Part shown: positions 8,527 through 64,000 of the stretch, in pieces
How positions within the stretch are numbered: the first letter of the stretch is position 1
Layout of the letters: each line of letters starts with the position of its first letter
Origin: Zopfochytrium polystomum
Lineage: Eukaryota; Chytridiomycota; Chytridiomycetes; Chytridiales; Chytridiaceae
Assembly: GCA_025765615.1 (NCBI GenBank)
Contig: JAIVFJ010000301.1
Span: forward strand, 1 to 64,000
Length of the DNA stretch: 64,000 nucleotides
Direction: 5' to 3'
Notes under the pieces: generated by a model
Databases searched by the model: none
The model's input: only the letters and a program-made list of their open reading frames with translations
Told to the model about the DNA's origin: nothing
Program-made: the position numbers and the translations under genes

Positions 8527-8820
8527 GTGCCCGTACCGCGAAACCACAACCCCAACCAAATTCCCTCTCTCAACAGCGACATGTCAAACATTTTCCGTAT
8601 GAACTTTCGCATTTTCCGTTCGTCGGACCTCCGAGAAACGGACTGATTACCAATCAATCAGACCGTGATTTACTAATGCAAACTCAGTATTGGGGGATTG
8701 TAATATTAAATACCAAAAAGGCCATGGCGATCAATGATAATAATCGTTGATCCCTCAACCCACAAGGAGGATCATCGTCACCATCATCGTTCATCGCCAA
8801 TCGTCCATCGTCAATCAACT
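8066..8820. other. Intergenic with poly-A tract
   Basis: No gene supported. An A run of about 26 lies at 8497-8522. An in-frame ATG at 8734 would add 29 His-rich residues to the next gene. Confidence 0.6.
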
Positions 8821-17265: not shown

Positions 17266-17526
17266 TGTTGAGAATTGGAGGGAACTGCACACGAGAATGA
17301 GATGAAGATTCTCCCACTTATATTGAGGAAGGATGACGAGAGAGAGACGTTTGGGGACGGCAACGAGGAAGGAGGGCGGCGTCACAAACCTGCACACGAG
17401 AATGAGATGAAGATTCTCCCACACCGTGTGTGACTTGGAAATCAGCATAAAAGAGGAAGAAGAGAATGGGCAAACACATGAGAGTAAAAGGAGCAGAGAA
17501 AAAGGTCTAAAGTCTAAAAGTCAACA
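17266..17526 (-). repeat. 3' LTR of the copia element
   Basis: 261 bp, left on the map. Nearly identical to 22523-22783, with inverted TGTTG/CAACA ends. It contains an internal direct repeat of CACACGAGAATGAGATGAAG. Confidence 0.95.
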
Positions 17527-17527
17527 C

Positions 17528-17545
17528 TCCCACCCATCGAGACGT
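17528..17545 (-). other. Polypurine tract
   Basis: Read on the minus strand, a GGGTGGGAG purine run lies just upstream of the 3' LTR, the expected plus-strand primer site. Confidence 0.6.
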
Positions 17546-22479: not shown

Positions 22480-22509
22480 CGTTTTGCGTGTGCGATTCAG
22501 TAGCACTTT

Positions 22510-22522
22510 GGGCTCATAACCC
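22510..22522 (-). other. Primer binding site matching the initiator tRNA-Met anticodon arm
   Basis: The plus strand reads GGGCTCATAACCC directly beside the 5' LTR. That is the anticodon stem-loop of a eukaryotic initiator tRNA-Met (CAU anticodon). The element strand is therefore complementary to an internal tRNA fragment rather than the tRNA 3' end, as in the half-tRNA priming known for Drosophila copia. Confidence 0.75.
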
Positions 22523-22783
22523 TGTTGAGAATTGGAGGGAACTGCACACGAGAATGAGATGAAGATTCTCCCACTTATATTGAGGAAGGATGACGAGAGA
22601 GAGACGTTTGGGGACGGCAACGAGGAAGGAGGGCGGCGTCACAAACCTGCACACGAGAATGAGATGAAGATTCTCCCACACCGTGTGTGACTTGGAAATC
22701 AGCATAAAAGAGGAAGAAGAGAATGGGCAAACACGTGAGAGTAAAAGGAGCAGAGAAAAAGGTCTAAAGTCTAAAAGTCAACA
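22523..22783 (-). repeat. 5' LTR of the copia element
   Basis: 261 bp, right on the map, partner of 17266-17526. Confidence 0.95.
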
Positions 22784-45100: not shown

Positions 45101-45659
45101 CGTGCGGCGACAAGCCGAAGCGCAACCCTAGCCTCTTTCCCCGTCCGCAGTCGCCCACAATCGCATGCGCTTCCTTCCCGTGCTAGGGACGTCAGCACAA
45201 CGTCCGACCCCGGGCAGCACCGCCGCCGGCCCGGTGCCCTTCCCCCCCCGACGCCAGCTTCAACCAACGATGTCAGTGGCTGAACTAAACGAGGGTTAAG
45301 GGAGATCTTGGCGTTGAGAAATCCAGCCCTTGAAGGAACTTCGGTTTGAAGCTGAAGATGATCTGCTCACAGGCAGGCGGTTCATCTGCCACGAAGAACC
45401 GCCAGCATAATCGCCATTTCAGTCTGATAAAATCTGTGAATGTCGGGGGTCAGCCTTTACTCTATTGGGGGTGGGGTTTGCGATGCACTGTTACATTGCA
45501 ACAGTTGGAAAAGAAACCGATATAGTATTTATAAAGTGTTTGAAACAGGGATGGACAGCCAACGCAAGCAGCACTCAACACGCAAGCCAAGTCATTCCAA
45601 AAGAACACTCAAAGAAGATCAACCTGCCACCCTCACATCTCATCGAAGCCCCTCACAAG
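41816..45659. other. Gene-poor region rich in microsatellites
   Basis: Over 3.8 kb I find no convincing gene. GA tracts lie at about 42075-42146 and 45000-45050, a CT tract at about 42540-42587, and CA runs near 42450 and 43298-43322. Around 44640-44900 is an AT-richer block with small hairpins (CCCACC...GGTGGG at about 44740) and a lone B-box-like GGGTTCGAGGCC on the minus strand at 44860. Two open frames of 161 and 204 codons lack recognisable features. Confidence 0.5.
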
Positions 45660-46939
45660 CCCGTGCTGCCCGTTGATCTTGTTGTGCACGACAACGCACC
45701 CGCCCGCGTCGACGTGCGTGTTGATCTTGTTTTGCGCCCCGCGACCCGCATTTTATTCGCCAGCTGAAACTTGCCCAGCAACCCGCCGCCGACCACCGTG
45801 ACATGCTTGATCTCGTCTGGGTTTGGGAGCCTTCTTCTTGACGGGTTCCACGACCCTTTCTTTCTGCGGTGGTGTCGTCGGCGGCGGCGCCGGCGCCCGT
45901 CGCGTCCCCGGCGGTCTTCTTACTGAACGGGTTCCACGATTTCTTACCCGCCGCCGCGCTGCGGGCGCCTTGGCCGACGCCTCGGCAGTGTTCGCGGAGG
46001 ACTCGGAGGCTGCGCCGCCCGCCGCCGGCGCGGCCGCGCCACTTCTTCGGGGTGTGCTGGTGCGTTCGAGGGTCTTTTTCTGGTACGGGAACGGAGCGGG
46101 TTTCTGGGACGGACAGCGGGCTCTTTTCAAGCGCATCTTCGACGCATAGTCGACGTCGACGGCCTCGTCGGCGGCGGCGAGGTCGCTGTCGTCCCAAGCG
46201 TCCCTCGTCCTCGAACAGGTACTCGACGGCGCGCCGGAAGATGGAGCGCTCAGAGCGGAACTTGCCCTTGCTGCAGTCGGTCCTGTGGAAAAGAATCCAA
46301 CAGAGGAACAATTTCGGATTAGTGCATGTTGACAAGCAACAGGCTATTGCTGGTTGCGGCTCGCTCGTTGATCCTACTTACCAGCGTGTGGGTCTTTTTC
46401 CCGCCGCAGACGGTGTAGCAGCCGTTCCCGGGTTTCGCCTCATAGTGGTTGATCCGCTTGTTCTCCTTGTCCTTGTCGCGCTCGTACTCGTTTCTTGAAT
46501 CCCTCCTGAGTAACGTTCTGGGCCGCCTTTCTGTTTCGATGATGCACCTGTTACGGGCCGTTGGTAGATTAGGAGTTAGGGTTGAATGGGAGTCTCACAA
46601 GGGCAGATCTTCTCCAACTCTCACTTCAGCCAGCTGCTTCCCGCCCATGGCCCCGGCGACCCCGAGACTCCCCCGATGATCACTCCCGTGACGGGCTCCG
46701 ATTGAACCGGCGATACAAATTGGAGGCGAGAGCGACTGCTAGGCGGGTCTGCAGCTGCAGAGACAGGGGAGGAATTGGCCAGCAGTGTCGACGCGGGCGA
46801 TTCCCGTGTAGGTCGCCGACGTCTGGTGCGAATAGAGGTGCGGCGAAGACGGCGGGGCGGCAAGCGCGACGACGAGGGAGTGGATCAGCAGGGCAGCGGC
46901 CGCAAGGGCCGCGGAGGCGCTCCTTGTGCGGAGCTGCAT
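45660..46939 (-). pseudogene. Array family copy 3, multiple frameshifts
   Basis: The start is ATG 46939, with signal peptide MQLRTRSASAALAAAALLIH. Exon 1 ends with NLYRRF and GAMGGKQLAE in different frames. Exon 2 (about 46549-46385) keeps HHRNRKAAQ and GCYTVCGGKKTH but has an extra A after GFK. Exon 3 keeps TDCSKGKFRSERS, SWNPFSKK and the C-terminal region but changes frame at least four times. It lies head to head with copy 4, with 855 bp between their starts. The density of indels makes real pseudogenisation likely. Confidence 0.7.
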
Positions 46940-47794
46940 CTCTTTGGAATTGGGGGGGTGAACCCAGCCAGCACGGAGGAACAGGGTCAGTAATAAATGC
47001 GCCAAAACCAATCCGGCCCTGTTCGGTGTTTGCTCCGCACTTTTTTGTCTCCAAATCGATTTCGACCCCTTGGGTGCTTCGCCCGTCGGTTTGAAAAAAC
47101 AGCGAGACACGGGTGGCATCCGGCCGTGCGTGGGTGGACAAACCAAGAAAAGCAAAGCATGGCAATCTCATGGACATTCTCTCGCGCCGTGTCAGACAAT
47201 TTATCCTGTCGACTCACTCCGTGGAACTCTCAGTCCCTCCTTTATCTATTTCTCACTTTTGCGGACAGTGACCCATTCGTCAGTCTCTCGCTCTCTCTCT
47301 TCAACAGTGTGTGCTCAGCCCGCGCTGATTCTGCTTTTCACAAACACGTTCGCAGACGCGCCGACAGAGCAACAAGGCGCGTGACCCTTTCCGGAATCGA
47401 TCGGCAGAAGACACGGGCGAGCCGTGGGGCCGTCTGTCTGTCTGTCTGCGTACACTGTGTGCGGCCAGCGTGGCGCTCATTTAATGACAACCCCGTTAAG
47501 TCCGGAGTATGGCCGCACCACGATAGGCGCAGCAAACCGAAAACAGGGAAAGCCGGGAAGAGAGAGAGAGCGAACAAGATGAGAGAGAGATAGGGAGATA
47601 GAGAGATAGAGAGAGATAGAGACAGAGATAGATAGAGAGAGAGAGAGAGTGAGTGAGAGAGAGAGAGAGAGGGGCGTGTGCGTGTGTGTAGCGAAACCCA
47701 AGCGCGAAGAGAAGCAGCTCGCTCCAAATAGAAGATAAATGTTGCCTGCTTTCAGATTCCGTTTTCGGCGACAAGCAGATATCATTACAACCAG
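46940..47794. promoter_or_regulatory. Shared divergent upstream region of copies 3 and 4
   Basis: Copies 3 (-) and 4 (+) diverge from this region. A block at about 47300-47460 (GTGTGTGCTCAGCCCGCGCT, CCTTTCCGGAATCGATCGGC) recurs at 60805-60960 upstream of copy 8. A GA tract spans about 47565-47672. The conserved leader TTTTCGGCGACAAGCAGATA follows, just before the copy 4 start. Confidence 0.5.
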
Positions 47795-49480
47795 ATGAAG
47801 TTCAGCAAGCAGTGCCGTTTCCGCTGGGATTGCGGCGGCCTGCCGCCGTGGCACACTCCGTCAGCTCGCTACCGTGGGCGCATCGGCGCCCCTCACGCCA
47901 GACGGTTCATCACCTTCGTCTCCGCTGATCGCCTCCTCCTTGTCCGTCGCAACGTCAGACTCCTCTGCGCACGGCCTGGTCTCGGGTCTCTACCGTCGGC
48001 GTCCTCGAACCCGTCAGCGCGACCATCAGCGCCGTGGGCTTGGGTGTTGCCGGCGCGATGGGTGTCAAGAACTTGGCTGAGGTAAATCCAGGTTTCTCTC
48101 TTCTCATTCTTTGGCTGGGAGTGTTTATCGCGCGCCGCTGACAGGATGTCGGGGGGTGTCCCAAAGGCCCACCACCGAACAGAAAGCGCTCAAAAGTTTG
48201 TGGAGGACGGGTACAAGGATGAGTACGCCCGAGACAAGGACAAGGATACCAAGCGCATCAACCACTACGTAGGCGCACCCTCCAAAAATTGCTACTCCGT
48301 GTGCGGTGGTCAGAAGACACACAGCCCGGTGAGTGCTGCGTTTCGATGAGTCGTCGCAAGGTCGTGCATCCAACCGAGATCTAGTCTGATCCAAACCTCC
48401 TCTCTTTTCGACCCCACCCCATCGTTTTCTCTGCCCAGGCCGACTGCAGCAAGAAAAAGTTCCGATCCGAGCTCTCGCTTTACCGCCGCGCTATCGAGTA
48501 CCTGTTCGAGGACGACGACGCCTGGGACGAGAGCGACCTCGACGAGGACGAGGCCGTCATGGACGTCGACTACGCCGTCGAGGACGCGCTGAAAAAGAGC
48601 CCCCTCTCATCGCAGAACCCGCGCGTTGTGGAAGCCTGGTGCGTAGCTCCCTAACCCCTGGCGGAAGATGGGCGTGCGATCCCCAGGGCAAAAGTAGCAC
48701 CTCACGAGGATGGGATGGAATGGGATGGGACAGCGTGGGGTGTAGGGCTAGGTGCGCGGGACGGCTGGATGGCAGGAAGTCAGGTGACAAGAGTGTGTAT
48801 TGCCTTCCCCCCCCGGAGAAAATCAACCAACAAACGACGAAAAAGGCAACGAACCCAAAAAAAAGAGAGAAGAAAAAAGAGCGGCCATGGTGGGAGGCAG
48901 ATAAAAGTGTTGCGTGGGAGTGGACACAACAAGGTCACAGCAGGTAAAGAAGACACAAAAAATGACAGGTGGGGCCTCCCAAAACAGGGAAAGCCGCCAG
49001 AAAACCCAGACGAAAGAGCTCCCCCCAGAAACCAAGGAAGCGACCCACGCTTCCACAAGCGTCCGTATCAGAAGAAGACTCTTGAACGCACCAGCACGAC
49101 CCCCAAGCCGTACAAGGGTGCGCCGGCAAAGGCAGCCGGTGCATCGACGACGCCAGCCAAGGCCGCAGCGACGTCGGAAAAGGCGGCGTCCGCTCCGGCC
49201 GAAAAAGTCGTGGAACCCGTTCAATAAGAAGACCGCCGCCGCCGCCGCAACGGACGCCTCGGGCGCGTCGGCGAAGAAATCGTCGTCGTGGAATCCGTTC
49301 GGGAAGAAGGAACCGAACCCAGACGAGATCAAGCACGTCAAGGTCGGCGGCGGGCTCATCAACAAGTTCCGGACGGCGGAGAAGATGCGCACGAGCGCGG
49401 AGAAGAAGATTGACGCACAGGTCAAAGCGGGCGGGTGCGCTGTCGTGCACAACAAGATTAACGGTCAGCACGGTCTGTGA
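47795..49480 (+). pseudogene. Array family copy 4, frameshifted and interrupted by a TIR element
   Basis: Start ATG 47795. Exon 1 is close to copy 8 in DNA but has indels that break the signal peptide frame. Exon 2 (about 48161-48330) is in frame, with SKNCYSVCGGQKTHSP. Exon 3 begins at about 48438 with ADCSKKKFRSELS and runs to LSSQNP, where a 433-bp element is inserted at 48626. It resumes after 49061 with RPYQKKTLERT. A further extra C near 49200 shifts the frame before SWNPFNKK; the C-terminus (GGCAVVHNKINGQHGL) is intact. Confidence 0.85.
48626..49058. mobile_element. 433-bp MITE-like element with inverted ends
   Basis: The ends are TTGTGGAAGCCTGG and, inverted, TTGTGGAAGCGTGG. A GCG triplet flanks both sides (48623-48625 and 49059-49061), fitting a 3-bp target duplication. 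The element splits codons that are contiguous in copies 5 and 8 (AACCCG...CGTCCGTATCAG). No transposase frame is inside, so it is non-autonomous. Confidence 0.75.
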
Positions 49481-49879
49481 GAATGGTGGTTGCTGCGCCC
49501 AAGTTTTCGGTGGGGGAGGCTAGTGGTTAAGGTCCCCTACTTTTTTGGGATGTGGCGTTACGCTTTTGTTAAGCTTGTTTATGAAGAGATAATACCTGTA
49601 ACGACTTTGACGCCAGTCCAAACCGCTGTTTGTTTGAACAAACGGGGGTATTGCCGTCGAGCGCCTGTTTGACGACGGTGAAGCCAGACACAAAAGTGAA
49701 CTTGTAGACAGCAAACCCGTCGACGACTCCGCCATGGATAGTTCGAACGACCCCGCCCACGCTGACCGACACCCATAACATAAGAGATTCGCGGGGTAGC
49801 CAGCAAAGCCAGCCGACTCCTCCAAGACCACGCTGCGAGGATGAGGACAGAGGTGGGTAACAGGCAGGCATCCTCACCT

Positions 49880-50210
49880 CACACAGACCCCTGCTGCTCG
49901 TTCAGTGTGTTGTGCACAACGTCGCAGTCACTTGATTCGTATCCATCGTCCTCTCCGCTCTCTCGCACATCGTCTGCGCCCACAGGAGCTTGCTGATGAG
50001 CCTGCCGCCGACGGTGATTCGCTTGAATTCCACCGAGTTGGGAGGCGTCGCTTTTTTTTTTGGAGAGCGAGGCGGGTTGGTTTCTCTTCTTCGCGAGAAA
50101 CTCGGGCCACGGGCGGCTGCGGCTGAGCATCGGTCGCGGTCTCCGTCAGTTCCGTTTGTCACCTTTGAGAGAAAAGTCAGTACGGATGAAATGCAATCAA
50201 ACTTAGACAC
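49880..50210 (-). pseudogene. Inverted C-terminal remnant of the family
   Basis: On the minus strand, pieces in shifted frames match the family C-terminus: FKRITVGGRLISK matches IKHVKVGGGLINK, then MCERAERTMD and VVHNTLNEQQG match AEKMRTSAEKK and VVHNKINGQHG. No exon 1 or 2 is recognisable. Confidence 0.6.
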
Positions 50211-50546
50211 TGGGCTGATTGTGTGCGGCTGAGGACGCGGCGCGCGTGATCACTGTGCTGCGTTCTCAGTTTCTTTCTGGCTTTTGTCGTTTGAGAAGGG
50301 CAAGCGCGATGGCTCCCGAGCACTCCTGTCTGCCGGTCTGCTTCGGAATTCATTGGTGAAATCCGGGTGTTTGGGCTGGGCGCAGCGCACTAACCTAGCA
50401 GCGAGAGAGAGAGAGAGACAATGTAAGTGTCACGGACATGGCGAACGAAAGAAAGAAGAGGGACATCGCCAAACTCGGAAGAGAGGGTTAACTCTTCCCT
50501 GCTATCCGACTCTTTTTCGGTGACAAGCGGTATCAACAGCAGCAGC

Positions 50547-51827
50547 ATGAAGTTCAACCAGCAGGCAGTTTCCGTGGCGCTGGCAGCCGTTGCAGCGTTG
50601 GCAAACTCCATCAGCTCGCTACCATGGGTACAAGCGGCACCCCTCGCGTCAGACGGTCAATCCCCTGCGCTCTCCGCTGCTCGCGTCCTCCTTGTCCGTA
50701 TCACCGTCTGACCCCTCTGCCCACGGCGGCCTGGTCTCTGGTCTTTACCGTCGCGTGATCGAACCCGTCAGCGCGACCATCGGCGCTGTGGGCATGGCCG
50801 TTGGCGGCGTGATGGGTGTCAAGAACTTGGCAGAGGTAAAACTCTCGTTTCGGATTTTTGCTGGTGTGTGCTATTCGGGGCGCTGACTGGATGCCGGGCT
50901 GTCCAAAGGCCCACCACCGAAACCGAAAGGCGGCGCAGAACTTCGTGGAGCAAGGGTACAGGGACGAGTACGAGCGAGACAAGGACAAAGACACCAAGCG
51001 CATCAACCACTACGAGGCGCACCCGTCAAAGGGCTGCTACGCTGTTTGCGGCGGTCAAAAGACCCACAGCCCGGTGAGTGCTTATGCGATTCGATGGGTC
51101 ATCGAGGGTCGTGCATCCAACGGGATCAGCGGCTGATCCAAACCTCAACCGGCCCATCATTTTCTTTCCCCAGGCCGACTGCAGCAAGAAAAAGTTCCGA
51201 TCCGAGCTCTCGCTTTACCGCCGCGCCATCGAGTACCTGTTCGAGGACGACGACGCCTGGGACGAGAGCGACCTCAACGAGGACGGGGCTGTCATGGACG
51301 TCGACTACGCCGTCGAGGACGCGCTGAAAAAGAGCCCGCTCTCATCGCAGAACCCGTTGCGTCCGTATCAGAAGAAGACTCTTGAACGCACCAATACGAC
51401 CCCCAAGCCGTACAAGGGGGCACCGGCAAAGGCGGCCGGTGCATCGACGACGCCAGTTAAGGCCGCAACACCCGCCAAGGCCGCAGCGGCGTCGGAAAAG
51501 GCGGGGCCAGGGGCCGCCGCCTCCGCCGCTCCGGCGAAAAAGTCGTGGAACCCGTTCAATAAGAAGACCAACGCCGCTGCTTCTACCGCCGCTACGGACG
51601 CCTCTGGTGCGGCAGCGGCCAAAAAGTCCTCGTCGTGGAATCCGTTCAAGAAGAAGGAACCGAACCCAGACGAGATCAAGCACGTCAAGGTCGGCGGCGG
51701 GCTTATCAACAAGTTTCGCGTGGCGGAGAAGATGCGCACGAGCGCGGAGAAGAAGATTGACGCGCAGGTCAAAGCGGGCGGGTGCGCTGTCGTGCACAAC
51801 AAGATTAACGGGCAGCACGGTCTGTGA
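50547..51827 (+). CDS. Array family copy 5, near-intact with one frameshift in exon 1
   Basis: Exons 50547-50835, 50909-51073 and 51174-51827. The signal peptide is MKFNQQAVSVALAAVAALAN. Exon 1 carries one extra base in CTGCGCTCTCCG (near 50672) compared with copy 8; without it the frame continues to GLYRRVIEPVSATIGAVGMA. Exon 2 (55 codons) and exon 3 (218 codons) are fully open. Exon 3 has two SWNPF motifs (KKSWNPFNKK and SSSWNPFKKK). The C-terminus is identical in type to copy 8. It may be functional if the indel is a sequence error. Confidence 0.75.
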
Positions 51828-52239
51828 GCGAGGGTGGACTGTTGCGGCTGGGAAGTTTTGGTGAAGGGGATTCCTGTTAAAGGGCTTCCCTATTTTTGGA
51901 CGGCGTTTAGGCTTCTGTTAAGCTCGTTTATGAAGACAAAATACCTGTAACAACTTTGTTGCCAGACCAAACCGCTCTTTTCCTTTTTCTCGTGGCGATT
52001 GAAGTCGTTCTTGTTTTCTCGAGTGGCTTTACGGCTGATTCTGAGTTCGGGGGGTCGTGTTTGAAAATGGAACGAACGGGGTATTGCCGTCGACCGCCTG
52101 TTCGAGGATGGTGACGCCAGACAAAGGAGAACCTGTCGACGGGGAACCCGTCGACGCCGACTCCGCCGAGGATATTGAGAAAACCCGTCGAGGACGCTCC
52201 AACAAGGATCTGCCGGGTTGCCAGCAAAGCAAGCCGGCT
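51828..52239. other. 3' flank of copy 5, duplicated after copy 8
   Basis: Strongly similar to the region from 62560 onward, which has an extra insertion. Confidence 0.6.
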
Positions 52240-52600
52240 CCTCACACCTCACACAGACCCTGCTGGCCTTTCAGTTTGTTGTGCACAACGGCATCCTGCT
52301 TTGACAGGACTCGTATCCGTCTCCCTCTCCGCTCGCGCATCGTCTTCGCCAGCGGGAGCATGCTGATAAGCCTGACGCCGACCGTGATGCGCTTGACTTC
52401 CGCTGCGTTGGGAAGCCTCGTTTCCGCCGCGAGGGGGGTTGTTTTTTTCTTCACGGGATACTTCGGCCACGGACCTTCCGAGGAGCATCGGCTCGGTCTC
52501 CATCAGCTCATTCGTTGTCTGAGAGAGAATGAAGTGTTTTTTTTTTGTTTGTTGGGTGGAGGAGACGCTGAATGCAATGCAATCAAACTCAGACACAGGG
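52240..52600 (-). pseudogene. Inverted C-terminal remnant of the family
   Basis: The minus strand reads VKRITVGVRLISMLPLAKTM, then AVVHNKLKGQQGL in another frame, matching the family C-terminus. It is homologous to the remnants at 49880 and 63230. Confidence 0.6.
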
Positions 52601-52862
52601 CTGATTGTGTGCGGCTGGGTACGCGGCGCGCGTGATCATTCAGTGCGCCGCGCTTGTTCGTTTTGAAATGGAAGAACGGGACAGGCAGTTGTTCTCCGTG
52701 CCCAAGAAATTATTTACTTCGAGCACTGCAATGCCCAAAAGACACTGGCCGTCTGCCTCTGTCGGCCAGTGGGTATCTGGGTTGTGTGGCGCAGGGGCCC
52801 GAAACTCCCCAGTGGATTTCGGGAGTGTGGGCGCAGCACCGTTCCTCAAATTCACAAAACTA

Positions 52863-52950
52863 TCTCGAGAAGGAAAGAGTATCGCAACAGGAGAGAGAAA
52901 GAAAGAGAGAGAGAGAGAGGGAGATGAGAGAGAGAGAGTGAGAGAGAGAT
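52863..52950. repeat. GA-rich tract upstream of copy 6
   Basis: Interrupted GA repeat about 140 bp before ATG 53089, followed by AAGCGCAAAACATCAATACC, which recurs at 63920. Confidence 0.85.
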
Positions 52951-53088
52951 ACGATAAGGAAGCGCAAAACATCAATACCAACACGGAAGGGACATAATTA
53001 AAATCGTAGAAAGATCACCAACGCAGAAGAACATAATTAAAATCGCCGGAAAGCCAACTTGCCATCTTCCCGAAGCTGAATTTGGATC

Positions 53089-54332
53089 ATGAGGTTCTCG
53101 TCGAAAGCCGTCTCTGCGGCTCTCGCCGCTGCATTTGGCAGTGGCCTAAGTTCTTCGGCACGCTGCCGTGCGCCTTCGCGGCGCCCCTCGCCGCAGGCAG
53201 CCAAGCAGACGGCCAGATATCGGCATCGCCAATCTCTCCGCTGCTCGCATCAGACTTCTCTCCGTACGCCCTAGCCTCCGGTCTGTACCGTCGAGTGATA
53301 GAGCCCGTCAGCATGACGATCACCGCTACTGGCTTGGGCGTTGCAGCAACAATGGGAGTGAAGAACTTGGCAGAAGTGAGTATGTGATGCTGTGGACGAG
53401 ATCGCGGTAGGTGTGCGTGTGGACTTCAGTTTGAACAAGACAGATAACGGGACCCGTTCCGTTCCGCAGGCTCACCATCGAAACAGAAAGGCAGGCGCAA
53501 AACTTTGTCGAAGATGGGTATAAGGGTGAATACGAGCGCGACAAAGACAAGGACACAAAACGTATCAACCACTATGAGGCTCATCCGTCCAAGAACTGTT
53601 ACGCTGTTTGCGGTGGTCAAAAGACGCTCAGCCCTGTGAGTGCTGTCACCTTTTACTACCAAATGCTTTACCTCTAACCGCTCAAAATTTGGCTAGGCTG
53701 ACTGCAGCAAGAAAAAGTTCCGATCGGAGCTCTCACTTTACCGCCGCGCCATCGAATACCTGTTCGAGGATGACGATGCATGGGACGAAAACGCTGTGGA
53801 TGCTGACTCTGCCATCGACGTCGACTACGCCGTCGAGGATGCGCTGAAGAAGAGCCCGCTCTCTTCGGAAAGCCCACTTCGCCCGTACCAGAAAAAGACG
53901 CTCGAACGCACCAACACGACTCCCAAAACGTACAAGGGGGCGCCGGCCAAAGCGTCCACTTCGTCGACGACGCCAGCCAAGGCCGCAACACCCGCCAAGG
54001 GCGCTGCGTCGTCAGGAAAGGAGGCGGCCGCCGCTCCAGCGAAAAAGTCTTGGAACCCCTTCTCGAAGTCAAGCTCGTCATCCTCGTCCGCCAAGGACGA
54101 CTCTGCCGGATCGTCCAAAAAGTCGTCGTTGTTGTCGTCGTTAAATCCGTTCAAGAGCAAGGCGCCCAACCCGGACGAAGTCAAGCACGTCAAGGTCGGC
54201 GGCGGGCTCCTCAACAAGTTTCGTCCGGCGGAGAAGATGCGCGCCAGCGCGCAGAGGAAAGTCGATGCGCAGGTCGCTGCGGGCGGATGTGCTGTTGTCC
54301 ACAACAAGATTAATGGACAGCACGGTGTGTGA
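53089..54332 (+). CDS. Array family copy 6, possible reading frame with two compensating indels
   Basis: Exons 53089-53375, 53470-53635 and 53697-54332. The signal peptide begins MRFSSKAVSAALAAAFG; one base is missing around 53150 relative to the frame that continues as AAPLAAGSQADGQ. Exon 2 has one extra base near AGAAAGGCAGGCGC, and total length returns to phase before exon 3. Exon 3 (212 codons) is open: ADCSKKKFRSELS, acidic block, RPYQKKTLERTNTTPK, SWNPFSKSSSSSS, LNPFKSKAPNPDE, ending GGCAVVHNKINGQHGV. Between the indels the protein would differ strongly from the family, so it is either an error or a dead gene. Confidence 0.65.
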
Positions 54333-54929
54333 GCGAGTCAAAATGGGGCCGTCGGTGGTCGGGATATTTTCCTGTGGATGAGGTTTTTCTTTGGATGGGC
54401 GGGTGTTATCTATTTTTTCCGAATGGCCTGCTTATGCAACGATCCGATGCGCACTTCTTTTTCCGGTCTTTGTCAAACTTCCTCGGTGATGGTCCCTTTT
54501 CTATTCTTTGATCGATGAGCTTTGCGACAACATCCTCCTTGTTGAACCGAAGGTGTAATTAGTTGCAAATTTATCCCTCCCGTGGCCCCATTCTGCGTTT
54601 TGACTTTCTTAGTGCTTCAGTTTGCTCCGTCTGCGCAGCTCCAGTTCTGAAGAGGGTTGCGACGTGCTGGCTTCGCGTTCTGCCACCATCCTGCGGCAAT
54701 AGTCCCAACCTTGAGACCCTGCAGAAGGCCGGACGGGGAAACGGGAAGCGTCTCCGTTAAAGGCTGCCCTTTGACTGTTTGATACCAGCGACGCCAGGCA
54801 TTGAGGTATGCCAAGAAGAAATTGGATTCCGGTACCTCTGCCTGCCTGTCTGCTGGTTATCTGAGACTGTGGAATTTCGGAGTTTGGCGCAGCACCCAAA
54901 CTTGATACTCTTTCAAAATGAACACGAAA

Positions 54930-54976
<47 letters not shown>
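54930..54976. repeat. (GA)n tract upstream of copy 7
   Basis: GA run ending about 75 bp before ATG 55052. Confidence 0.9.
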
Positions 54977-55051
54977 TAAGAAAGCGCCAACAGCAAAGAA
55001 CAGAAAAGCAGCGCGCGAAAGTTCCAACTTGCCATTTTCCAAAGCCATTTC

Positions 55052-56260
55052 ATGAGGTTCCCCTCGGAGGCCGTCTCTGCGGCTCTCGCCGCTGCATTGG
55101 GCATGGCCCAGTCCTTCAGCATGCTGCCGTGCGCAAACGGCGAGATATCAGTATCGCCCATCTCTCCCCTGCTCGCATCCTCCTCGTCCGCCACATCAGA
55201 CTTCTTTCCGAAGGCCCTCGCCTCCGGCCTGTACCGTCCTGTAGTTGAGCCCATCAGCGCGTCGATCGCCGGTGTCGGCTTGGGCGTTGCTGGGTAACGA
55301 GAGTGAAAAACTTGGCAGAGAGGAATGCATGATGCTTTTGTAGCGATCGCGTTGGCGTGAACTCACCGGTCGAGCGAGTACCGATAACGGGATACATTCT
55401 TCTCCACGGTAGGCTCACAAGGAAAACAGAAAGGCAGCCCAAAACTTTGCGAGGATGGGTATTAAGCTGAATACGAGCGCGATAAAGACATACCAAACGT
55501 ATCAACCACTATGAGGTGCACCCGTCCAAGAATTGCTGCTCTGTTTGCGGCGGTCAGAAGGCGTGAGTGACCATGGTGACGTTTCTACCAAATACTTGGA
55601 CTAACCGCTGCAATTTTGGCTTAGGCTGACTACAGCAAGAAAACGTTCCGATCGGAGCTTCCCTCTTCCGGTCGCGCCGTCGAGTACCCCTTCGAGGACG
55701 ACGATGCCTGGGACGAAAGCGCTGTGGATGCTGCCTCCGCCATCGATGTCAACTACGCTGTCGAGGACGCGATGAAGAAGAGCCTGCTCACTTCGGAAAG
55801 CCCCTTCGTCCGCACCAGGAAAATTCGCTTGAACGCACCAACATAACTCCCACGACGTGCAAGGGTGCGGCGGTCAAGGAGTCAACTGTATCGACGACGA
55901 CAGCCAAGGCCGAAACTCTCGCCAAGGGCGCTGCGTTGTCGGAAAAGGCGGCCGCCGCCAACGGGGAGAAAGTCGTGCGGCCCTCTCAAGTTTTCAAAGT
56001 CAAGCTCCTCTTCCTCCTCCGCCAAGGGCGCCGTTAACGCATCGTCCAAAAAGTCTTCGTTGTTGTCGTCGTTGAATTCGTTCAAGAGCAAGGCGCCTAA
56101 CCCGGACGAAGTCAAGCACGCCAAGGTCGGCGGCGGGCTCATCAACAAGTTCCGGACGGTGGAGAAGATGCGCGCTTGCACGATGAAGAAAATTGACGCG
56201 CAGGTCGCTGCAGGCGGGTGCGCTGCTGCTCACAACAAGACTAATGGGTAGCACGGTCTG
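55052..56260 (+). pseudogene. Array family copy 7, degenerate
   Basis: Exon 1 starts MRFPSEAVSAALAAALGMAQ and is open to GVGLGVAG, where a deletion removes the frame. Exon 2 (about 55412-55564) has stops and deletions. Exon 3 keeps SKKTFRSEL, FEDDDAWDESAVD and KAPNPDEVKHAKVGGGLINK but changes frame near 55800-55980, and a TAG replaces the codon after HNKTNG. Several key cysteine codons remain. Confidence 0.8.
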
Positions 56261-56625
56261 TGAGCGTGTGATGATGGTGGCCGCCGGTAGATGGGGAAGT
56301 TTTCCTGTGGCTATAGATGGGTGTTCCATTTTTCCTTTTTGGTTAGTCGACTTTGTCATTCTTTCTCGTGATGAACCCTGTTTTTATTCTTAGTTCGATG
56401 AGCTCTACGATTGCATCCTCCTTGTTGAACCGAAGATGTAATCCGTTGCAAATTAACGGATGCGTCTTCTCCCCTAGTTTGGGCCGTCTGAGCAGCTTCA
56501 GTTCTGAAGTGGGATGCGACGGGTTTCGCTTCGCATTGTGCTGCCTGTTCTGCCCGTTGAATTGGTGGCCTTCAGCCTGTCAACTCCCCGTGGACTTACC
56601 TTTCGGAGATTCAAAAGCTGACAAG
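56261..56625. other. Spacer after copy 7
   Basis: Similar in part to the 3' flank of copy 6 (GTTGAACCGAAGRTGTAAT at about 54543 and 56425). No gene. Confidence 0.5.
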
Positions 56626-58180
56626 ATGGCGAAGCACAACGACCGAATGTCATCGGACCCCGCACGTTCCGATCAGTCACCAGATCGCGGCCAAGGAGGA
56701 GGTAACCCTGCCGTCGAGGCACTGCTGTGAGGCGTTTTCCTCAGCTGCACCAGGCCGCTGCGCGTCCTCAGCCGGGACCCGCGATGCGCTCGCTCTAATA
56801 CTGCGAACCCATCGCGAAAGGAACCTTGTGCCCTTCATCGACTGGACTCTCCACGGCTTCTTCCCCGGACTGGGTCGCGACAATCGCTTCCTAGGCGGCG
56901 GCGCCGACGAAGACGACGACGAAAGTGACGAGGACACCGAAGGAGGGGAAGACGCCGACCAAAGGGATGAGGATGGAAACGGAGAGGAGGACCACGACCA
57001 CCATCCGCCGCAACCGCCGCCGCCATCGCCCCTCTTACCTCCCCCACTTGTAAGGGGCCTGCCACCCGTGGTTCGACCGTTGGCCCGCGGATCTGCGAAG
57101 CCCTCCTACGATGACGGTTCACAGCATTCGCGGTGGCGGTGCTGCGACTTTGACTGCCGGTGGGACGGGTACTGGTCGGCTGAGGATCGCTCGGCGCGAG
57201 CGGTGGATATTCGCCGCGAGATTAGAACGCAGTGGAAATAGCACGTGCTTCGTGTCATTGGCCACCAGTCGCCGCAAGCGTGGGAGCAAGCAGCGGGGAA
57301 GGCGAAAGAACAGGCAAGAGAAAGGGTATTGGCTGAAGTGTATCAGGAAACCGCATCGAGGTACGCGAGATCGGGACGGTCGTCTACAGAGTTATCTTCG
57401 GAGAGGTTGGCGGCGCTCGTTGCGGCTGCTGAGGAGGAATCCCGCCTTCACGCGCTTGTGACGGAGGTGCTCGACCCCAACCTCGTGGAGCCTTTCCACG
57501 TTAATATGCTGCCCTTCGAGATGGGACACCACTGCAGCCTGCCGCTCAAGTGCCGACGCTACTCTGGCATCATCGACCTGTGTCTGCAGCACTGCCCCAA
57601 GGAGGTTGGCAACGTTGGCTACCTCACTATCGACGAAGGATGGGTCGAGCCAAGCGAAACACAACGAAGACCGGGTCTGCACATTGAGGCACACTGTGAT
57701 GTTCTGACCGGCACTGAGGGCAGCGGCCACAGTGCTGACCAGTTCTTTGAGCTCAAGCCAGTGGAGCGACTGTGGGGAGCCGGAAGCGGTAATGAGCTCT
57801 TTGAAGCCTTTTGCTTCTGTTGATTCAACGTTCTTTGACATCTTTTCCAAGGGCCAGACGTTTTAAACATTGAGGGCGGGATCTTTCAGGCCTCAAACGT
57901 CCCAGGATCATGCCGTGTGTGGGACTGCGTCCTTAGAGACCCATGCGGCGCGGTGGGTCCGCACGGCAGCGTCGAGCACCTTCGCAGCCTGCTGGACCGC
58001 GGCACCCCCGCCTCGTTTGTGTCCCTTCCAATTCCTGTGGCGAACCGCCCGGAGCATCTCCACGACTCCGAGCAGCGGAACCCCGCGCCAAAGCGAGGCA
58101 CGCAGCACCCTGCAGCGGAGGAGGGATCAAGGTGGCGTGGCAGCACGACGCTTGCGGCGAACGAACTGGTGTGGATGACG
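56626..58180 (+). pseudogene. Unknown protein with QRRPGLH motif, one in-frame stop, 3' end replaced
   Basis: Exons 56626-56701, 56754 to about 57789 and about 57855-58180 join in phase. The protein has a leader, a segment LVPFIDWTLHGFFPGLG, a long acidic then Pro-rich stretch, WRCCDFDCRWDGYW, a helical Gln/Glu/Arg region, and a conserved-looking core with YLTIDEGWVEP, QRRPGLHIE, GGIFQASNVPGSCRVWDC and NELVWMTE. I recall QRRPGLH with ASNV...SCRVW from eukaryotic proteins of unknown function but cannot name the family. A TAG at 57239-57241 interrupts the frame (QWK then HVLRVIG). The 3' end runs straight into an array-family exon-3 remnant, so the gene is probably truncated. Confidence 0.5.
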
Positions 58181-58385
58181 GAGAGCCTCTTTCGTCGAGC
58201 AACCCGCTCCGCCCGCACGAGTTCCACGCCTAAAACTACAATGTCACCACCGCAAAGGTCGCTCCCGGGCCACATCGTCCGAGGTCGGAGGCGGAGCGTC
58301 GACTGCGGCGGCCAAGCCCGCTGAAAAAAGTAGTCTTCGTGGAACCCGTTCAAGAAGGCGCCGAACCCCGACGAGATCTTTTTGC
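58181..58385 (+). pseudogene. Array family exon-3 remnant
   Basis: Reads EPLSSSNPLRPHEF, then in another frame KKSSSWNPFKKAPNPDEI, matching SPLSSQNPLRPY and KKSSSWNPFKKKEPNPDEI of other copies. The match stops abruptly after PDEI. Confidence 0.65.
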
Positions 58386-59574
58386 CTCTCCAACGGTTAT
58401 TGGGTTGGGGCTTTCGCAGTTTGTGTCTCTAATTCAATGACAGTCGACAGTTGGTCCCAGCGTCAGTCTGAAAACTGAAAATGAAAAAAAAAAAGTTAAA
58501 CAGACTTCACCCCTCTCTCAAATTGTCGCTGGACCTGTCTCTGTCTCTGGCCTCACGTATTGAGTTGTCTGTCTCGCGTCCTTCTCTCTGCACGAAGTTC
58601 TAGCAGCTGAGTCTCCTCTCACTATACCGCTCCTCGTCAATGATCCATCCGCCTCCGCCACTGAAAAGCGACACCGCTGCCGAAGTTCTCCTTTTATTAC
58701 CAAAATGGAAAGGGAGATAAACAAGAAGGTCTTGGCAATTCGTAAGCAGAATAAAAGGCTGCATCCCAATGAGAAATCTTTTTCAGGGGATTCTGAGCAG
58801 AAGAAAGTAGTCGGCGTGTCTGTTTCAGGAGGTTCCCGTTGGGACCCGTAGGGAACAACCCAGATAAACAGGTTCAGAGAGAGTACGTAGGATGTTATCT
58901 TGCCGGGGAGGCTGCATTTCAGCGATTTTCGAAAGAAATGGTCCAAGTTAGAAGGCCTGTCTTGGGAGTTTTTGTTAGAGAAAACCACCCTGAAGAATAG
59001 ATTCGGGGGGTGCCCGGAGGCAGTTATCTGCCAGGAAGTCTGTGTTGCGGGCCGTTTTCAAATGACACTGCCAGCCTCAATGAGTCGCGCACCGCAGTTT
59101 GGGTGGCTGTCGATGGTTCCAAATTTGCGCTGTTCTAAGGATCAGAAAGGCAGCAAATGCCGTCAGTCAAGAGAGTTCTTCCATCACGGTTCCCTCGAGG
59201 AACCGCCTTCAGGCCACCCAGGAAAGGTGGCTCACCCTGAGATGGAATCCCCAAAGCTAGCCCCTTCCCTTGACTTCAATTAGAACATATCACCCTGGCG
59301 CGGGTTGACCAAACGCCTATGGTTCACGAGATGTCGACAATGCACCAAATCTGGCTGTATCTTAAGCAAACGAGGAGATTTCCAATCTTGATGGCACGTG
59401 GTGAGCGTCGGAATGTGTTTCGTTTTTATTCGGACGCGCTTTGCTAAAGTTTTGTCACTTTGTAGCATCAACTCGGCAACCCTTCCCGGCAGATTATTCT
59501 CCATAAGTCAGCTCTTTTGAGTGGAGAGGAAGCTTCGCTTTTAGGCACTGAAGACCTCAAACTACATTTTACAG
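58386..59574. other. Intergenic, no gene recognised
   Basis: No supported gene. A GTCCAAGTTA motif at about 58941 matches the core repeated in the 28.9-29.9 kb region. Confidence 0.4.
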
Positions 59575-59853
59575 AGTCGGATCGCCTCGATTCGATTGCC
59601 CATCCATCACTACCTCGACGGCGAATTCGACGGCAGCGGCTCCAACGTCGACCGCTCCGACACTCGCAAGTGGGGTTCTCAAGGGGCTGACGCTGCCATC
59701 TCCACTCCGGCCTTGGCAGCCATTATCCTCAGTGTCGTTCTCATCGCCGCCCTAACGATCGTCGCGGCAATCTTGCTCCGCCGTCGGCGGCAAGCGAATC
59801 TTGAGCGAAAGGTCCGCACCCACAACGGCGAGGCGTTTTACAGCGTGAATTGA
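59575..59853 (+). CDS. Orphan 3' exon of a single-pass membrane protein
   Basis: An acceptor-like TTTTACAG precedes an open frame to TGA 59853. It has a hydrophilic Asp/Ser/Gly stretch, a strong TM helix (ALAAIILSVVLIAALTIVAA), a stop-transfer RRRRQ cluster and a short tail ending FYSVN. This is the layout of the end of a type I membrane protein. No matching upstream exons are visible, so it may be a fragment. Confidence 0.45.
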   Translation, partial: SRIASIRLPIHHYLDGEFDGSGSNVDRSDTRKWGSQGADAAISTPALAAIILSVVLIAALTIVAAILLRRRRQANLERKVRTHNGEAFYSVN

Positions 59854-61091
59854 TTTGATTTTGGGCCAATTGCATTCCTTTATCTATTTCTCACTTTTGC
59901 TTTTGCTGACCCATTCACTGGGGGGGGAGTTAGTAATTGCCAGCGGAAATGGTGGAGAGTAGGGGCAATTTGCAATGGCGACACTCCTAATCCTCATTCT
60001 GAGCAGTCAATATGCCACGGTAATTTGTTGCGATGGGATCCCTTCGGCTGTTGTGCGCGGAGGAGATCCTTTCTCTAGTTGTTAGAACGACACTCTCGTC
60101 GCATGACCTTAATTGAGGGAGTGACCACATCGGATCACCCGACGCGAGCGGGCCAGTGAAAAAAGTTGGCCGCTTGTTCATGCAGTGGCCGCTGCGGAGC
60201 TCTGTCGGGACCGTTGAGTTGAGTGGCTCGCCCACCATGGTCTCAGCCCTGTCGTGAGAGAGAGGAAAGCAAGAGATGGAAAAATAAATACAGCGAATTC
60301 TTTGCAGTCCTGTCGCACGCCAAAGCTTCGCCCAACCAGGCGGTCCGAGCGCAATCATGCGAGTGCCGAGGTCCGCAAGCAAAAAGAACAAACCCTTCGA
60401 GAAGTGGCTGAACCGGCAATAGTTCAAGTTGAACGAACGCATTGTGGCTGAGCCAGGGCAGGGTTAGTTTCTTTGATATCACAAGTTGGGAGTATAAGTA
60501 CAGAGAGAGGGCTTTTTTTTTTTTTTCTTTTTGTCTCTTCCTTGTTCTCAAATGAAGTGCGACGGCGCAAGTGCTCAGCCCAACCGTTTGTCCTTCTCCA
60601 ACAAAACGGGGAAAGAAGCAAAAACACCAATGAGAATGAGTGAGTGCTCTGCGCGAGTGTCAACACGCATGCAGGCGGGACACGAATGCCCCAATGCGGC
60701 TGGGGCAGTTTTCTCTTTCTCAGCCAGTCTCCCTTTCCTCCCCTCTCTCTCTCGCCCTTCGTCGGTCTCTCGCTCTCTCTCTTTCCCTGTCCTCAGAATT
60801 CAACGGTGTGTGCTCAGCCCGCGCTGATTCTCGTCTTGTTTTCACAATCAGGCTTAGCAGACGCCCCGACAGAGCAGTACCAAGGCCGCGTCAGACACGT
60901 GACCCTTTCCGGAATCGATCGGCAGAAATCACAAGCGAGCGTGTCTGGGGTGCGATCTGTCTGCCAGTCTGGCTCATTGCCCCCAAACTCGGTCAAGTCC
61001 GCAGAGCGAAGGCAAGCTACGCCGCCCAACGATAGGCAGATGGAATTCACCAAAACAGGGAATGTCAGGCAGAGAGAGAGAGCGAACGAGA

Positions 61092-61154
<63 letters not shown>

Positions 61155-61306
61155 CAGAGAGAGAGAGACAGAGAGAGACAGAGAGAGAGAGAGAGGGCGT
61201 GTGTGGGTGTGCAGCGAAAACCAAGAGCTCGCTCCGAATAGAAGATAAACTCTTGCCCGCTTTCCGATTCCTTTTTCGGCGACAAGCAGATATCAATTAC
61301 AACAAG
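59854..61306. promoter_or_regulatory. Upstream region of copy 8
   Basis: It shares blocks with the region upstream of copy 4: CTTTATCTATTTCTCACTTT at 59880 (47240 in copy 4), then the GTGTGTGCTCAGCCCGCGCT and CCTTTCCGGAATCGATCGGC blocks at 60805-60930. About 0.8 kb between them (about 59917-60755) has no counterpart at copy 4. The GA tract at about 61072-61195 and the CGGCGACAAGCAGATATCA leader follow. Confidence 0.55.
61072..61195. repeat. (GA)n microsatellite upstream of copy 8
   Basis: A GA run with GACA variants ends 112 bp before ATG 61307. Confidence 0.95.
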
Positions 61307-62552
61307 ATGAAGTTCAGTCAGCAGGCCGTTTCCGCTGGGATTGCGGCGGCTGCCGCCTTGGCACACTCCGTCAGCTCGCTACCATGGGCGCAAGCGGCGC
61401 CCCTCGCGCCAGACGGTCAATCACCTGCGTCTCCGCTGCTCGCGTCCTCCTTGTCCGTCGCAACGTCAGACTCCTCTGCGCACGGCCCGGTCCCGAGTCT
61501 CTACCGTCGCGTCATCGAACCCGTCAGCGCGACCATCGGCGCCGTGGGCTTGGGCGTTGCCGCAACAATGGGAGTGAAGAACTTGGCAGAGGTAAACCCT
61601 CGTTTCTGATGCCCTGCTGGGGTGTTTTACTCGGGCGCTGACAGGATGTCGGGGGGTGTCCCAAAGGCCCACCACCGAAACAGAAAGGCGGCTCAAAAGT
61701 TTGTGGAGGAAGGGTACAAGGACGAGTACGAGCGCGACAAGGACAAGGACACCAAGCGGATCAACCACTATGAGGCGCACCCGTCAAAGGGCTGCTACTC
61801 CGTCTGTGGTGGTCAAAAGACCTACAGCCCGGTGAGTGTGGGCGAGTCAATTCGTCGTTGCAGGTCGTGCACCAACCGAGATCTGGCCTGATCCAACCCC
61901 AAACCTCCTCCTTTTTGGACCCCTCCCCGTCATTTTCTTTCCCAAGGCCGACTGCAGCAAGAAAAAGTTCCGATCCGAGCTCTCGCTTTACCGCCGCGCC
62001 ATCGAGTACCTGTTCGAGGACGACGACGCCTGGGACGAGAGCGACCTCGACGAGGACGAGGCCGTCATGGACGTCGACTACGCCGTCGAGGACGCGCTGA
62101 AAAAGAGCCCCCTCTCATCGCAGAACCCGCTGCGTCCGTATCAGAAGAAGACTCTTGAACGCACCAACACGACCCCCAAGCCGTACAAGGGGGCGCCGGC
62201 AAAGGCGGCCGGTGCATCGACGACGCCAGCCAAGGCTGCAGCGACGTCGGAAAAGGCGGCGTCCGCTCCGGCGAAGAAGTCGTGGAACCCCTTCAATAAG
62301 AAGACCGACGCCGCCGCCGCAGCGGACGCCTCGGGCGCGGCGGCCAAGAAATCATCGTCGTGGAACCCGTTCAGGAAGAAGGAACCGAACCCAGACGAGA
62401 TCAAGCACGTCAAGGTCGGCGGCGGGCTCATCAACAAGTTCCGGACGGCGGAGAAGATGCGCACAAGTGCGGAGAAGAAGATTGACGCGCAGGTCAAAGC
62501 GGGCGGGTGCGCTGTCGTGCACAACAAGATTAACGGGCAGCACGGTTTGTGA
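61307..62552 (+). CDS. Array family copy 8, intact secreted protein of unknown function
   Basis: Exons 61307-61591, 61667-61831 and 61947-62552 are all phase 0 and give 351 residues. Signal peptide MKFSQQAVSAGIAAAAALAH, with a possible cleavage after AQAAP. A hydrophobic Gly/Ala segment (VSATIGAVGLGVAATMGVK) follows SLYRRVIEP. Exon 2 encodes a highly charged helix (YKDEYERDKDKDTKRINHY) and GCYSVCGGQKTYS. Exon 3 has DCSKKKFRSELSLYRRAIEY, an acidic block (FEDDDAWDESDLDEDEA), QKKTLERTNTTPKPYK, an Ala/Lys/Pro linker with two SWNPF motifs, NPDEIKHVKVGGGLINKF, and the end GGCAVVHNKINGQHGL. Cysteines: two in exon 2, one at the start of exon 3 and one near the end. No known domain is recognised. Confidence 0.85.
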
Positions 62553-63229
62553 GAATGGTTGTTGCCGCGCCCAAGGTTTCGGTGGGGAGGGTGAGGTCCC
62601 CTACTTTTTTGGATGTGGCGTTACGCTTCTGTTAAGCTCGTTTATGAAGAGATAATAACTGTAACCGACTTTGACGCCAGTCCCAACCGCTGTATTCCTT
62701 ATTTTTGCAGCGATTAAAGTCATTCTTGTTTTCTTGAGTGACTTCTAATGGGAATTCGTACCCACTTGCAGTGTAGCGGGGTGACTGCGTACAAGGATTG
62801 TGAAGGACTGGAGGCAGATTTTAGGGTAGAGGGGCCTTTATTCAATGAGGTTCTTCTTGTCTTCACTACTGCTTCCCTCTCACACCCTACTGCCTTTTTT
62901 ACTGCCCAGGAGGAAAGACACTTCCCCAAATTTTGAGGATGCTTGGGCCACCTTGCACTTTACCAAGTGCAAGTGCAGTGCTGCAGACAAATCCTCCCAA
63001 AATTCTGTCTGCCCAAATTCCAACAACTTCACGGCTTATTCTGAGTTCGGGGGGGGACGTGTTTGAAAGGGGAACGAAAGGGGGCTTTGCCTTCGACCGC
63101 CTATTCGAGAGAACTTTTCGACGGCGAAACCGTCGACGCCGACTCCGCCGAGGATATTGAGAAAGCCCGTCGAGGACGCTCCAACAAGGATCTGCCGGGT
63201 TGCCAGCAAAGCAAGCGGACTCCTCACAC
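62553..63229. other. 3' flank of copy 8 with a 285-bp insertion
   Basis: Homologous to 51828-52239 except for 62745-63029, which is absent there and is bordered by ACTT on both sides. Confidence 0.6.
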
Positions 63230-63560
63230 CTCGCACAGATCCTGTTGCCCTTTCAGTTTGTTGTGCACAACGGCGTCCTGCTTTGGCAGGACTCGTATCC
63301 GTCTCCCTCTCCGCTCGCGTATCGTCTACGCCAGAGGGAGCATGCTGATATTCTGACGCCGACGGTAATGCGCTTGACTTCCGCTGCGTTGAGAAGCCAT
63401 GTTTCTGCAAGCGAGGCGGGATGGTTTTTTCTTCAGGGTATAATTCGGTGACGGACGACTTGCTACCGAGGAGCGTCGGCTCGGTCGCCGTCAGCTCATA
63501 TGTTGTCTGTGAGAGAGAATTTGTTGAATGGAGGAGACGCTGAATGCAATATACAATTAA
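63230..63560 (-). pseudogene. Inverted C-terminal remnant of the family
   Basis: Homologous to 52240-52600. The minus strand reads RAERETDTSPAKAG and, in another frame, VVHNKLKGQQD-like residues. Confidence 0.55.
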
Positions 63561-63868
63561 TCTCAGACACAGGGCTGATTGTGTGCGGCTGGGTACGCGG
63601 CGCGCGTGATCACAGTGCTCCTTTTTCAGCTGCGCCGCGCTTGTGGCTTTTTGTCGAAACAGAAACGGTGCAGGCAGTTGTTCTCAGTGCCACAGAAATT
63701 ATTTCTTCGGGCACTGCGATGCCCAGAAGACACTTCTGTCGGCCTGTGGTCGTCTGGTTGTGGGGCGCCAGGACCCGAATCTCGCCAGCGGATTTCGGGA
63801 GTGTGGGCGCAGCACCTTTTCCTCAAATTCACAAAACTATCTCGAAAAGGAAAGAGTATCGCGAAAAG

Positions 63869-63917
<49 letters not shown>

Positions 63918-64000
63918 AGGAAGCGCAAAACATCAATACCAACACGGAAGGACATAATTAAAATCGCAGAAAGTCAACTTGCCATCTTCCCAAGCTGAAT
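63561..64000 (+). promoter_or_regulatory. Upstream region of a further family copy beyond the window
   Basis: Closely matches 52600-53080 upstream of copy 6, including the GA tract (63872-63913), AAGCGCAAAACATCAATACC, and CAACTTGCCATCTTCC. At copy 6 the ATG follows 9 bp after the point where the window ends, so a copy very likely starts just outside. Confidence 0.75.

Follow-up and report, generated by a model that had tools for sequence, protein, structure and literature searches.

An orphan family of putatively secreted proteins encoded in a tandem array in the chytrid Zopfochytrium polystomum

Chytrids commonly possess orphan families of secreted proteins, only a few of which have a known function. 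The most similar groups by description are tribes 1 and 4 of Batrachochytrium salamandrivorans, which are lineage-specific, multi-copy, secreted and devoid of a recognisable domain; in the available part of the report, few of the Batrachochytrium tribes are assigned a function (PMC5364385). A second relevant group is that of the Kex2-processed peptide precursors (KEPs), which, in the accessible text, combine an apparent signal peptide with conserved dibasic sites (PMC7329392). Here we analyze a protein family from Zopfochytrium polystomum (Chytridiomycota, Chytridiaceae) that shares these traits, appears to consist of secreted preproproteins and is encoded in a tandem array within positions 1-64,000 of contig C301 (70,572 bp); this whole stretch of 64,000 nucleotides is referred to as the window. 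The family is likened to the B. salamandrivorans tribes by description, the tribes not having been compared directly, and searches started from it returned no Batrachochytrium protein. Unlike the KEPs, as far as the accessible part of their description goes, it lacks an array of KR/RR-flanked peptide cores, and the parts outside the cores are the most constrained.

The initial annotation, made from the sequence of the window, described at least eight copies of an unrecognised secreted protein family, each with three phase-0 exons. Blast searches of the window with the H locus, the H protein and the B protein bear out the array of eight copies (A to H), of which H and B are clean, and the similarity is far above chance (self-matches aside, the D and E units have an E of 0 in the blastn search with the H locus, and copy E has an E of 1e-111 in the tblastn search with the H protein). 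Gene H (61307-61591, 61667-61831 and 61947-62552, plus strand) is intact and encodes 351 amino acids; the length of each exon is divisible by 3, all exons are in phase 0, and the two introns, of 75 and 115 bp, have GT-AG boundaries. The sequence of this gene is trustworthy because the copy on contig C475 differs from it by 13 substitutions and no indel over 1,246 bases. Gene B (24394-24128, 24066-23902 and 23830-23276, minus strand) is likewise an intact, clean three-exon, phase-0 gene, coding for 328 amino acids, and complete intact copies of it are found on C455, C324 and C146. Both models confirm the proposed exon structure, and all the motifs listed with it are present, namely CYSVCGG, DCSKKKF, the acidic block, the Lys/Ala/Pro linker, SWNPF and GGCAVVHNK. 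At 23902-24066 of gene B, the public model P0009 lacks the stretch VCGGTRTHTL, which P0015 and the models built here retain; therefore, the public splice choice at this exon is probably wrong.

The family has so far been found in Z. polystomum only. Protein searches started with H, with a profile and with the C-terminal part identified no relatives beyond this species among 5.8 billion proteins, a result bounded by word-based pre-filtering and by the chytrid genomes included in the protein set; the search with the H protein returned 13 proteins, 12 of which are named Z. polystomum, the remaining one (P0004) being encoded on a contig of 70,572 bp. Scans of viral and prokaryote contigs revealed no relative of the family, no Pfam model reaches its cut-off for the family proteins, and sequence searches of the PDB yielded chance-level matches only. 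Two similarities deserve mention. The Pfam family DUF4951 (PF16309) shows a weak likeness over 33-37 C-terminal residues, about a third of the model, with E values of 0.0078-0.0083 for single proteins and 0.069-0.090 for the genome; the scores of 16.7-19.3 bits are below the curated cut-off of 27.3, and all six weak matches to this model in the genome, with a peak of 19.3 bits, fall within the family itself. Exon 2 resembles the helix and C..C(G)G pattern of the large extracellular loop of the tetraspanin CD9, at chance level (E of 0.23-0.64 in one PDB search and 0.27-0.28 in another), and none of the six hydropathy profiles displays the four membrane helices of a tetraspanin. No paper on the family was found in the open-licence literature, which leaves out most subscription papers. 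Thus, the family can still be called unrecognised.

Six sequences were profiled for hydropathy. All six have a hydrophobic N-terminus, in keeping with the look of a signal peptide, and A-x-A-like sites are discernible by eye in the gene models; apart from the N-terminal peak, the profiles contain only one further peak above 1.25. The Gly/Ala hydrophobic segment, at approximately residues 72-90, has a hydropathy of 1.06-1.61 over 19 residues. Four cysteines are common to the six sequences, and five are present in F', a close relative of copy F that lies beyond the window end (C301:64008-65247) and is open throughout. NPF also occurs in all six, with the core found once or twice per protein and flanked by lysines. 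Five subtypes can be delineated (H; B, as on C324; C320, plus strand; F'; and the C-type, as on C230), and in all of them [KR]R is invariant at residues 67-68, 125-126 and 166-167, none of these sites flanking the NPF core. An LxRR motif, likewise present in all five, follows a variable Ser/Pro spacer (mean number of nonsynonymous substitutions per site, dN, 0.81, compared with 0.32 in residues 64-95), so that a conserved dibasic site separates a variable pro-segment from a constrained mature part. This arrangement suggests a preproprotein matured by Kex2. Small secreted proteins are defined, in the available part of a paper covering the Z. polystomum genome, as shorter than 300 amino acids with at least four cysteines (PMC9926174); the four common cysteines agree with this definition, and the precursors, at 328-368 amino acids in the 16 models that passed the filter described below, exceed its length.

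An AlphaFold model of the protein P0001, covering exons 2 and 3 only and built with 9-11 near relatives, has block means of the predicted local distance difference test (pLDDT) that amount to 81-92 for residues 11-60 and to 62-88 for residues 211-260, drops below 50 for residues 69-108 and 119-202, and reaches a predicted template modelling score (pTM) of 0.44. The C-terminal strand-helix-strand recurs in the first, poorer model (pTM 0.23). These predictions suggest a small alpha/beta domain composed of exon 2 and the C-terminus and split by about 150 low-confidence residues.

Purifying selection acts on the family. A filter for open frames and splice sites was passed by 16 models, 15 of them distinct and two with a frame-shifted exon 1. 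The ratio of nonsynonymous to synonymous substitution rates (dN/dS, by the method of Nei and Gojobori, NG86) lies at 0.19-0.30 for all 10 subtype pairs; the values are rough for the several pairs, above all those with B, in which dS exceeds 1. By region (ratio of means over the 8-10 computable pairs of 10), dN/dS is 0.11 in the acidic segment, 0.16 in exon 2, 0.18 in the hydrophobic segment, 0.24 at the C-terminus, 0.35 in the linker, 0.42 in the spacer and, the highest, 0.45 in the signal peptide. Recent duplicates yield 0.13 to 0.66, with few changes each; the comparison of F' with C690_7122 (0.76) was left out on account of a shifted exon 1. Diversifying selection was not seen, no region exceeding 0.45, although these are averages that could mask single positively selected sites. 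The initial annotation invoked changing selection, which the range of 0.19-0.30 leaves unsupported; the comparison of dN/dS among copies that it proposed detects purifying selection instead, and this answers in favour of the family the part of its refuting condition that concerns a lack of such selection. Its ranking of variability holds in part: the C-terminus is among the least variable regions (mean dN 0.21, next to 0.14 in the acidic segment and 0.22 in exon 2), but the linker (0.51), which had been considered the most variable, is exceeded by the Ser/Pro spacer and by the signal peptide (0.59).

A search of the genome (a 761-contig assembly of 80.2 Mb) with the H protein gave 152 first-look candidates, 116 of which were scored, and among the matches listed relatives of H are present on C301 and 18 other contigs. 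The clustering and duplication of the family are thereby confirmed, as a tandem array with relatives on further contigs; several of these relatives sit inside segmental duplications, so that family counts are inflated by duplication. C283 and C260 carry an exon-1 relic of the family adjoining an unrelated gene. There are also weak matches on C307 (E of 0.13) and C7 (E of 0.99), and a match on C124 (E of 0.12) was dropped as unrecognisable as a member of the family. Across window positions 8710-40400, the single-copy-like flanks of the array are repeated, with 4 to 8 occurrences at 90-100% identity: the ABC-transporter flank (31.0-33.0k) in 5 places, the window included (C301, C455, C324, C112 and C146; 97-100%), the dioxygenase flank 4 times at 98-100% with 3 further partial occurrences, and the segment at 36.3-40.4k in 8 places at 90-100%, the window included, with additional pieces at lower identity. 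At first reading, such repeated flanks may represent uncollapsed, locally diverged haplotypes. The matches to the RNA polymerase large subunit, however, are spread over four contigs with a single place per contig, so that the core genome does not appear to be generally multiplied in the assembly, and segmental duplication is the favoured explanation.

The exons of individual copies seem to differ in age. Between H and the outside copy on C320, dS is 0.86 in exon 3 and 0.49 in each of exons 1 and 2. The ranking is different within the array: when H is compared with the copy at 11.1k of C475, exons 1, 2 and 3 have dS values of 0.15, 0.36 and 0.11, and when it is compared with E, exons 2 and 3 have values of 0.50 and 0.23. 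When third-position sites that are variable with C320 as the outgroup are divided into those at which an array pair agrees and those at which it differs, four pairs give 34:14 in exon 3 against 7:11 in the earlier exons (Fisher p 0.024), 39:7 against 18:16 (0.0026), 35:11 against 4:10 (0.0027) and 39:6 against 18:19 (0.00026); these pairs overlap and hence are not independent. The introns of H are 79% and 72% identical to those of E, which makes exon 3 the younger part in that pair. The simplest cause suggested by this pattern is that the copies have undergone gene conversion or exchanged sequence unequally; the mosaic is a lead rather than proof because exon 2 holds just 55 codons.

These observations are best, if tentatively, accommodated by an orphan family of secreted preproproteins with a structural or adhesive role in the extracellular wall, in the matrix or at the surface, a reading that we favour while giving it somewhat less than even chances. 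The signal peptide would be removed from the preproprotein, and a Kex2-type protease would then cut after LxRR (residue 68 in H). Two disulfides would staple the mature protein into one small alpha/beta domain, formed by exon 2 (helix-strand-strand) and the C-terminus (strand-helix-strand), with the acidic and Lys/Ala/Pro segments looping out as a disordered, oppositely charged insert. Once extracellular, the mature protein would be bound to the wall, the matrix or the surface and have a structural or adhesive function there, the variable linker setting its reach and charge, and segmental duplication together with ectopic exchange (gene conversion or unequal crossing-over) would keep renewing the copies. 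Several points weigh against this scenario. The wall or adhesive role is deduced from composition alone; the putative signal peptide was called from hydropathy and by eye; the motifs LxRR, NPF and RxxS/TxP are all short, and NPF and a conserved RxxS/TxP would be odd for a fully extracellular protein. The structural models are built on 9-11 near relatives and have a low pTM, and in the better run the mean pLDDT was below 44 for four models out of five. Nor is the exchange clean: the introns of H are 91% and 87% identical to those of the C475 copy and agree with exons 1 and 3, which makes exon 2 the odd one in that pair.

An alternative that has to be considered, although it is unlikely, is that these proteins are secreted effectors or toxin-like proteins acting on plant tissue, a competitor or a grazer. 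Z. polystomum is presumably a saprobe. The available part of a paper covering its genome describes it as "mainly associated with aquatic plants", a statement that is consistent with an effector and shows neither parasitism nor an effector role (PMC9926174). The family further matches expectations for effectors in being secreted-looking, lineage-restricted, clustered and multi-copy, within duplicated, transposon-bearing sequence, and orphan secreted tribes without a recognisable domain are known in B. salamandrivorans, in the accessible text of PMC5364385. However, selection across the paralogs is purifying on average, not diversifying, and Pfam searches detected no effector domain.

The second alternative, which we also regard as improbable, is a type I membrane protein in which the Gly/Ala segment is a membrane helix, the sequence HHRNRK behind it is the stop-transfer signal and the rest is a cytosolic tail. 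A basic cluster does lie directly behind the hydrophobic segment; NPF, present in all six profiled sequences, and R-x-x-S/T-x-P, kept at the start of the linker (RTNTTP, RTNSAP, RTSTTP, and RANSLP in P0010), would fit a cytosolic location, given that we take the former to be an endocytic (EH-domain) motif and the latter to be a phosphorylation/14-3-3-like motif. The usual hydropathy threshold for membrane helices is about 1.6, though, and most values for this segment fall below it; moreover, the four invariant cysteines better suit an oxidising compartment.

In contrast to the extracellular domain protein favoured here, a KEP-like precursor would be cleaved at its [KR]R sites to free short peptides, for example the KK-flanked SWNPF core. 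The three invariant [KR]R sites, the SWNPF-type motif, of which each protein has one or two and which in H is placed between pairs of lysines, and the presence of KEPs in 14 of 19 surveyed chytrid strains, in the accessible part of PMC7329392, are compatible with this possibility, but it is very unlikely considering that the invariant sites flank no repeated cores and that constraint is strongest in exon 2 and in the acidic, hydrophobic and C-terminal parts rather than in the linker that bears SWNPF. Finally, a mostly dead repeat family, visible only through recent duplication and assembly error, is hardly credible: several copies are broken, one of them by a transposon-like insert, but open paralogs with canonical splice sites reside on different contigs and the subtypes are under the constraint described above.

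The remaining copies in the window are in various states. Copy A (16088-17051, minus strand) has open exons 1 (89 amino acids) and 2, and an exon 3 that is closed from its expected start. Copy C (45657-46939, minus strand) has a broken frame on C301, whereas its relatives on C230 and C320 are intact. It is the head-to-head partner of copy D (47795-49480, plus strand), in which exon 3 is interrupted by a repeat element of about 430 bp. The following plus-strand copies are E (50547-51827), with a frame-shifted exon 1 and open exons 2 and 3; F (53089-54332), with frame breaks in exons 1 and 2 and an open exon 3; and G (55052-56263), which is degraded, with stops in exon 3. Absent from the initial annotation are the head-to-head arrangement of C and D, a short plus-strand exon-3 fragment (58295-58378) and three minus-strand C-terminal relics, those of exon 3 in the D unit (approximately 49879-50026) and the E unit (approximately 52249-52418), and one in the H unit (approximately 63227-63397) that was assigned because it matches those near 49.9k and 52.3k. 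The starts of C and D are 855 bp apart, and the space between them (46940-47794) is a candidate bidirectional promoter. Minus/plus head-to-head pairs also occur on C146, C184, C230, C320 and C53; thus, the array appears to derive from a single divergent pair by one-sided expansion. All five plus-strand array copies (D, E, F, G and H) have (GA)n tracts approximately 85-208 bp upstream of the start codon, compared with 4.1% of 20,000 random 300-bp plus-strand draws from the window; the five copies share ancestry and do not count as five independent cases.

The initial annotation also described the genes as decaying. This applies to D, with its transposon-like insert, and to G, with its exon-3 stops; for C, E and F it is confounded by probable assembly indels. 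Over the 9,759 columns in which the segment C301:45183-54881 is aligned with its duplicate on C146, there are 148 gap openings to 80 mismatches (1.85 gap openings per mismatch), compared with 352 mismatches and 76 gap openings (0.22) in six control blocks around gene B aligned with C324 and C455, and with ratios of 0.06 to 0.50 in eight smaller blocks aligned with C146, C622 and C592. Intermediate proportions are seen in the right half of the array, with gaps to mismatches of 20:48 on C475, 24:29 on C690 and from 4:16 to 64:59 on C754. At the level of single copies, E and its C146 duplicate differ by no substitution and 4 indels over 1,277 aligned bases; F' on C690 and on C62 by no substitution, twelve single-base indels and one 13-base gap (possibly a cut artefact); and the two H copies of C754 and C690 by a single substitution together with 7 single-base indels. 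The differences are of an ordinary kind between the copies of the next gene on C475 and C678 (34 substitutions, with one 9-base gap) and between C301 and C146 for copies F (10 substitutions, with 11 gaps), D (44, with 19 gaps) and G (53, with 10 gaps). An excess of indels without substitutions is typical of an unpolished assembly, and the frame breaks in the copies at 45-55 kb (C, E and F) may therefore be largely assembly indels.

By contrast with these, copy D is truly interrupted by a transposon-like insert, because the C146 duplicate carries the insert as well and because the insert has inverted repeats and is matched at 20 places in the genome, at 10 of them over nearly the full length. 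This unclassified element (48627-49057, in exon 3), which resembles a miniature inverted-repeat transposable element, has a 9-bp terminal inverted repeat, TGTGGAAGC, and the three other copies that were read are flanked by 4-bp target duplications (GCGT, GTGT and ACGG). An interpretation of the insert as a new intron was dropped in view of the inverted repeats, the target duplications and the further frame problems in D.

The neighbours of the array copies are an ankyrin-repeat protein (4315-5904), a LigB-type dioxygenase (8758-9678), an ABC1 atypical kinase (27112-27585) and a full ABC transporter (30888-34142). Between copies A and B lies a retrotransposon of the Ty1/copia type (approximately 17270-22640), with matches to gag and reverse transcriptase and an integrase match slightly below the cut-off; its two ends are similar in sequence, which suggests long terminal repeats. 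With regard to a subtelomeric reading, four TTAGGG units in forward orientation have 261 matches in the genome, none of them, among the matches listed, on an array contig. In the available part of the paper that covers its genome, Z. polystomum (formerly Cladochytrium polystomum) has the longest chytrid assembly, 81.2 Mb, with transposable elements accounting for 12.3% (PMC9926174).

For other duplicated arrays, the locus carries the caution that single-base assembly indels can mimic decaying genes. As regards the family itself, it is a quite doubtful proposition that these proteins represent a new class of extracellular fold, a disulfide-stapled domain of four strands and two helices whose halves are separated by about 150 residues of a charge-patterned disordered insert, with release of the Kex2 type; if true, this would be a new fold class so far confined to a single chytrid species. 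The five diverged, constrained subtypes make structure, processing and localisation directly testable.

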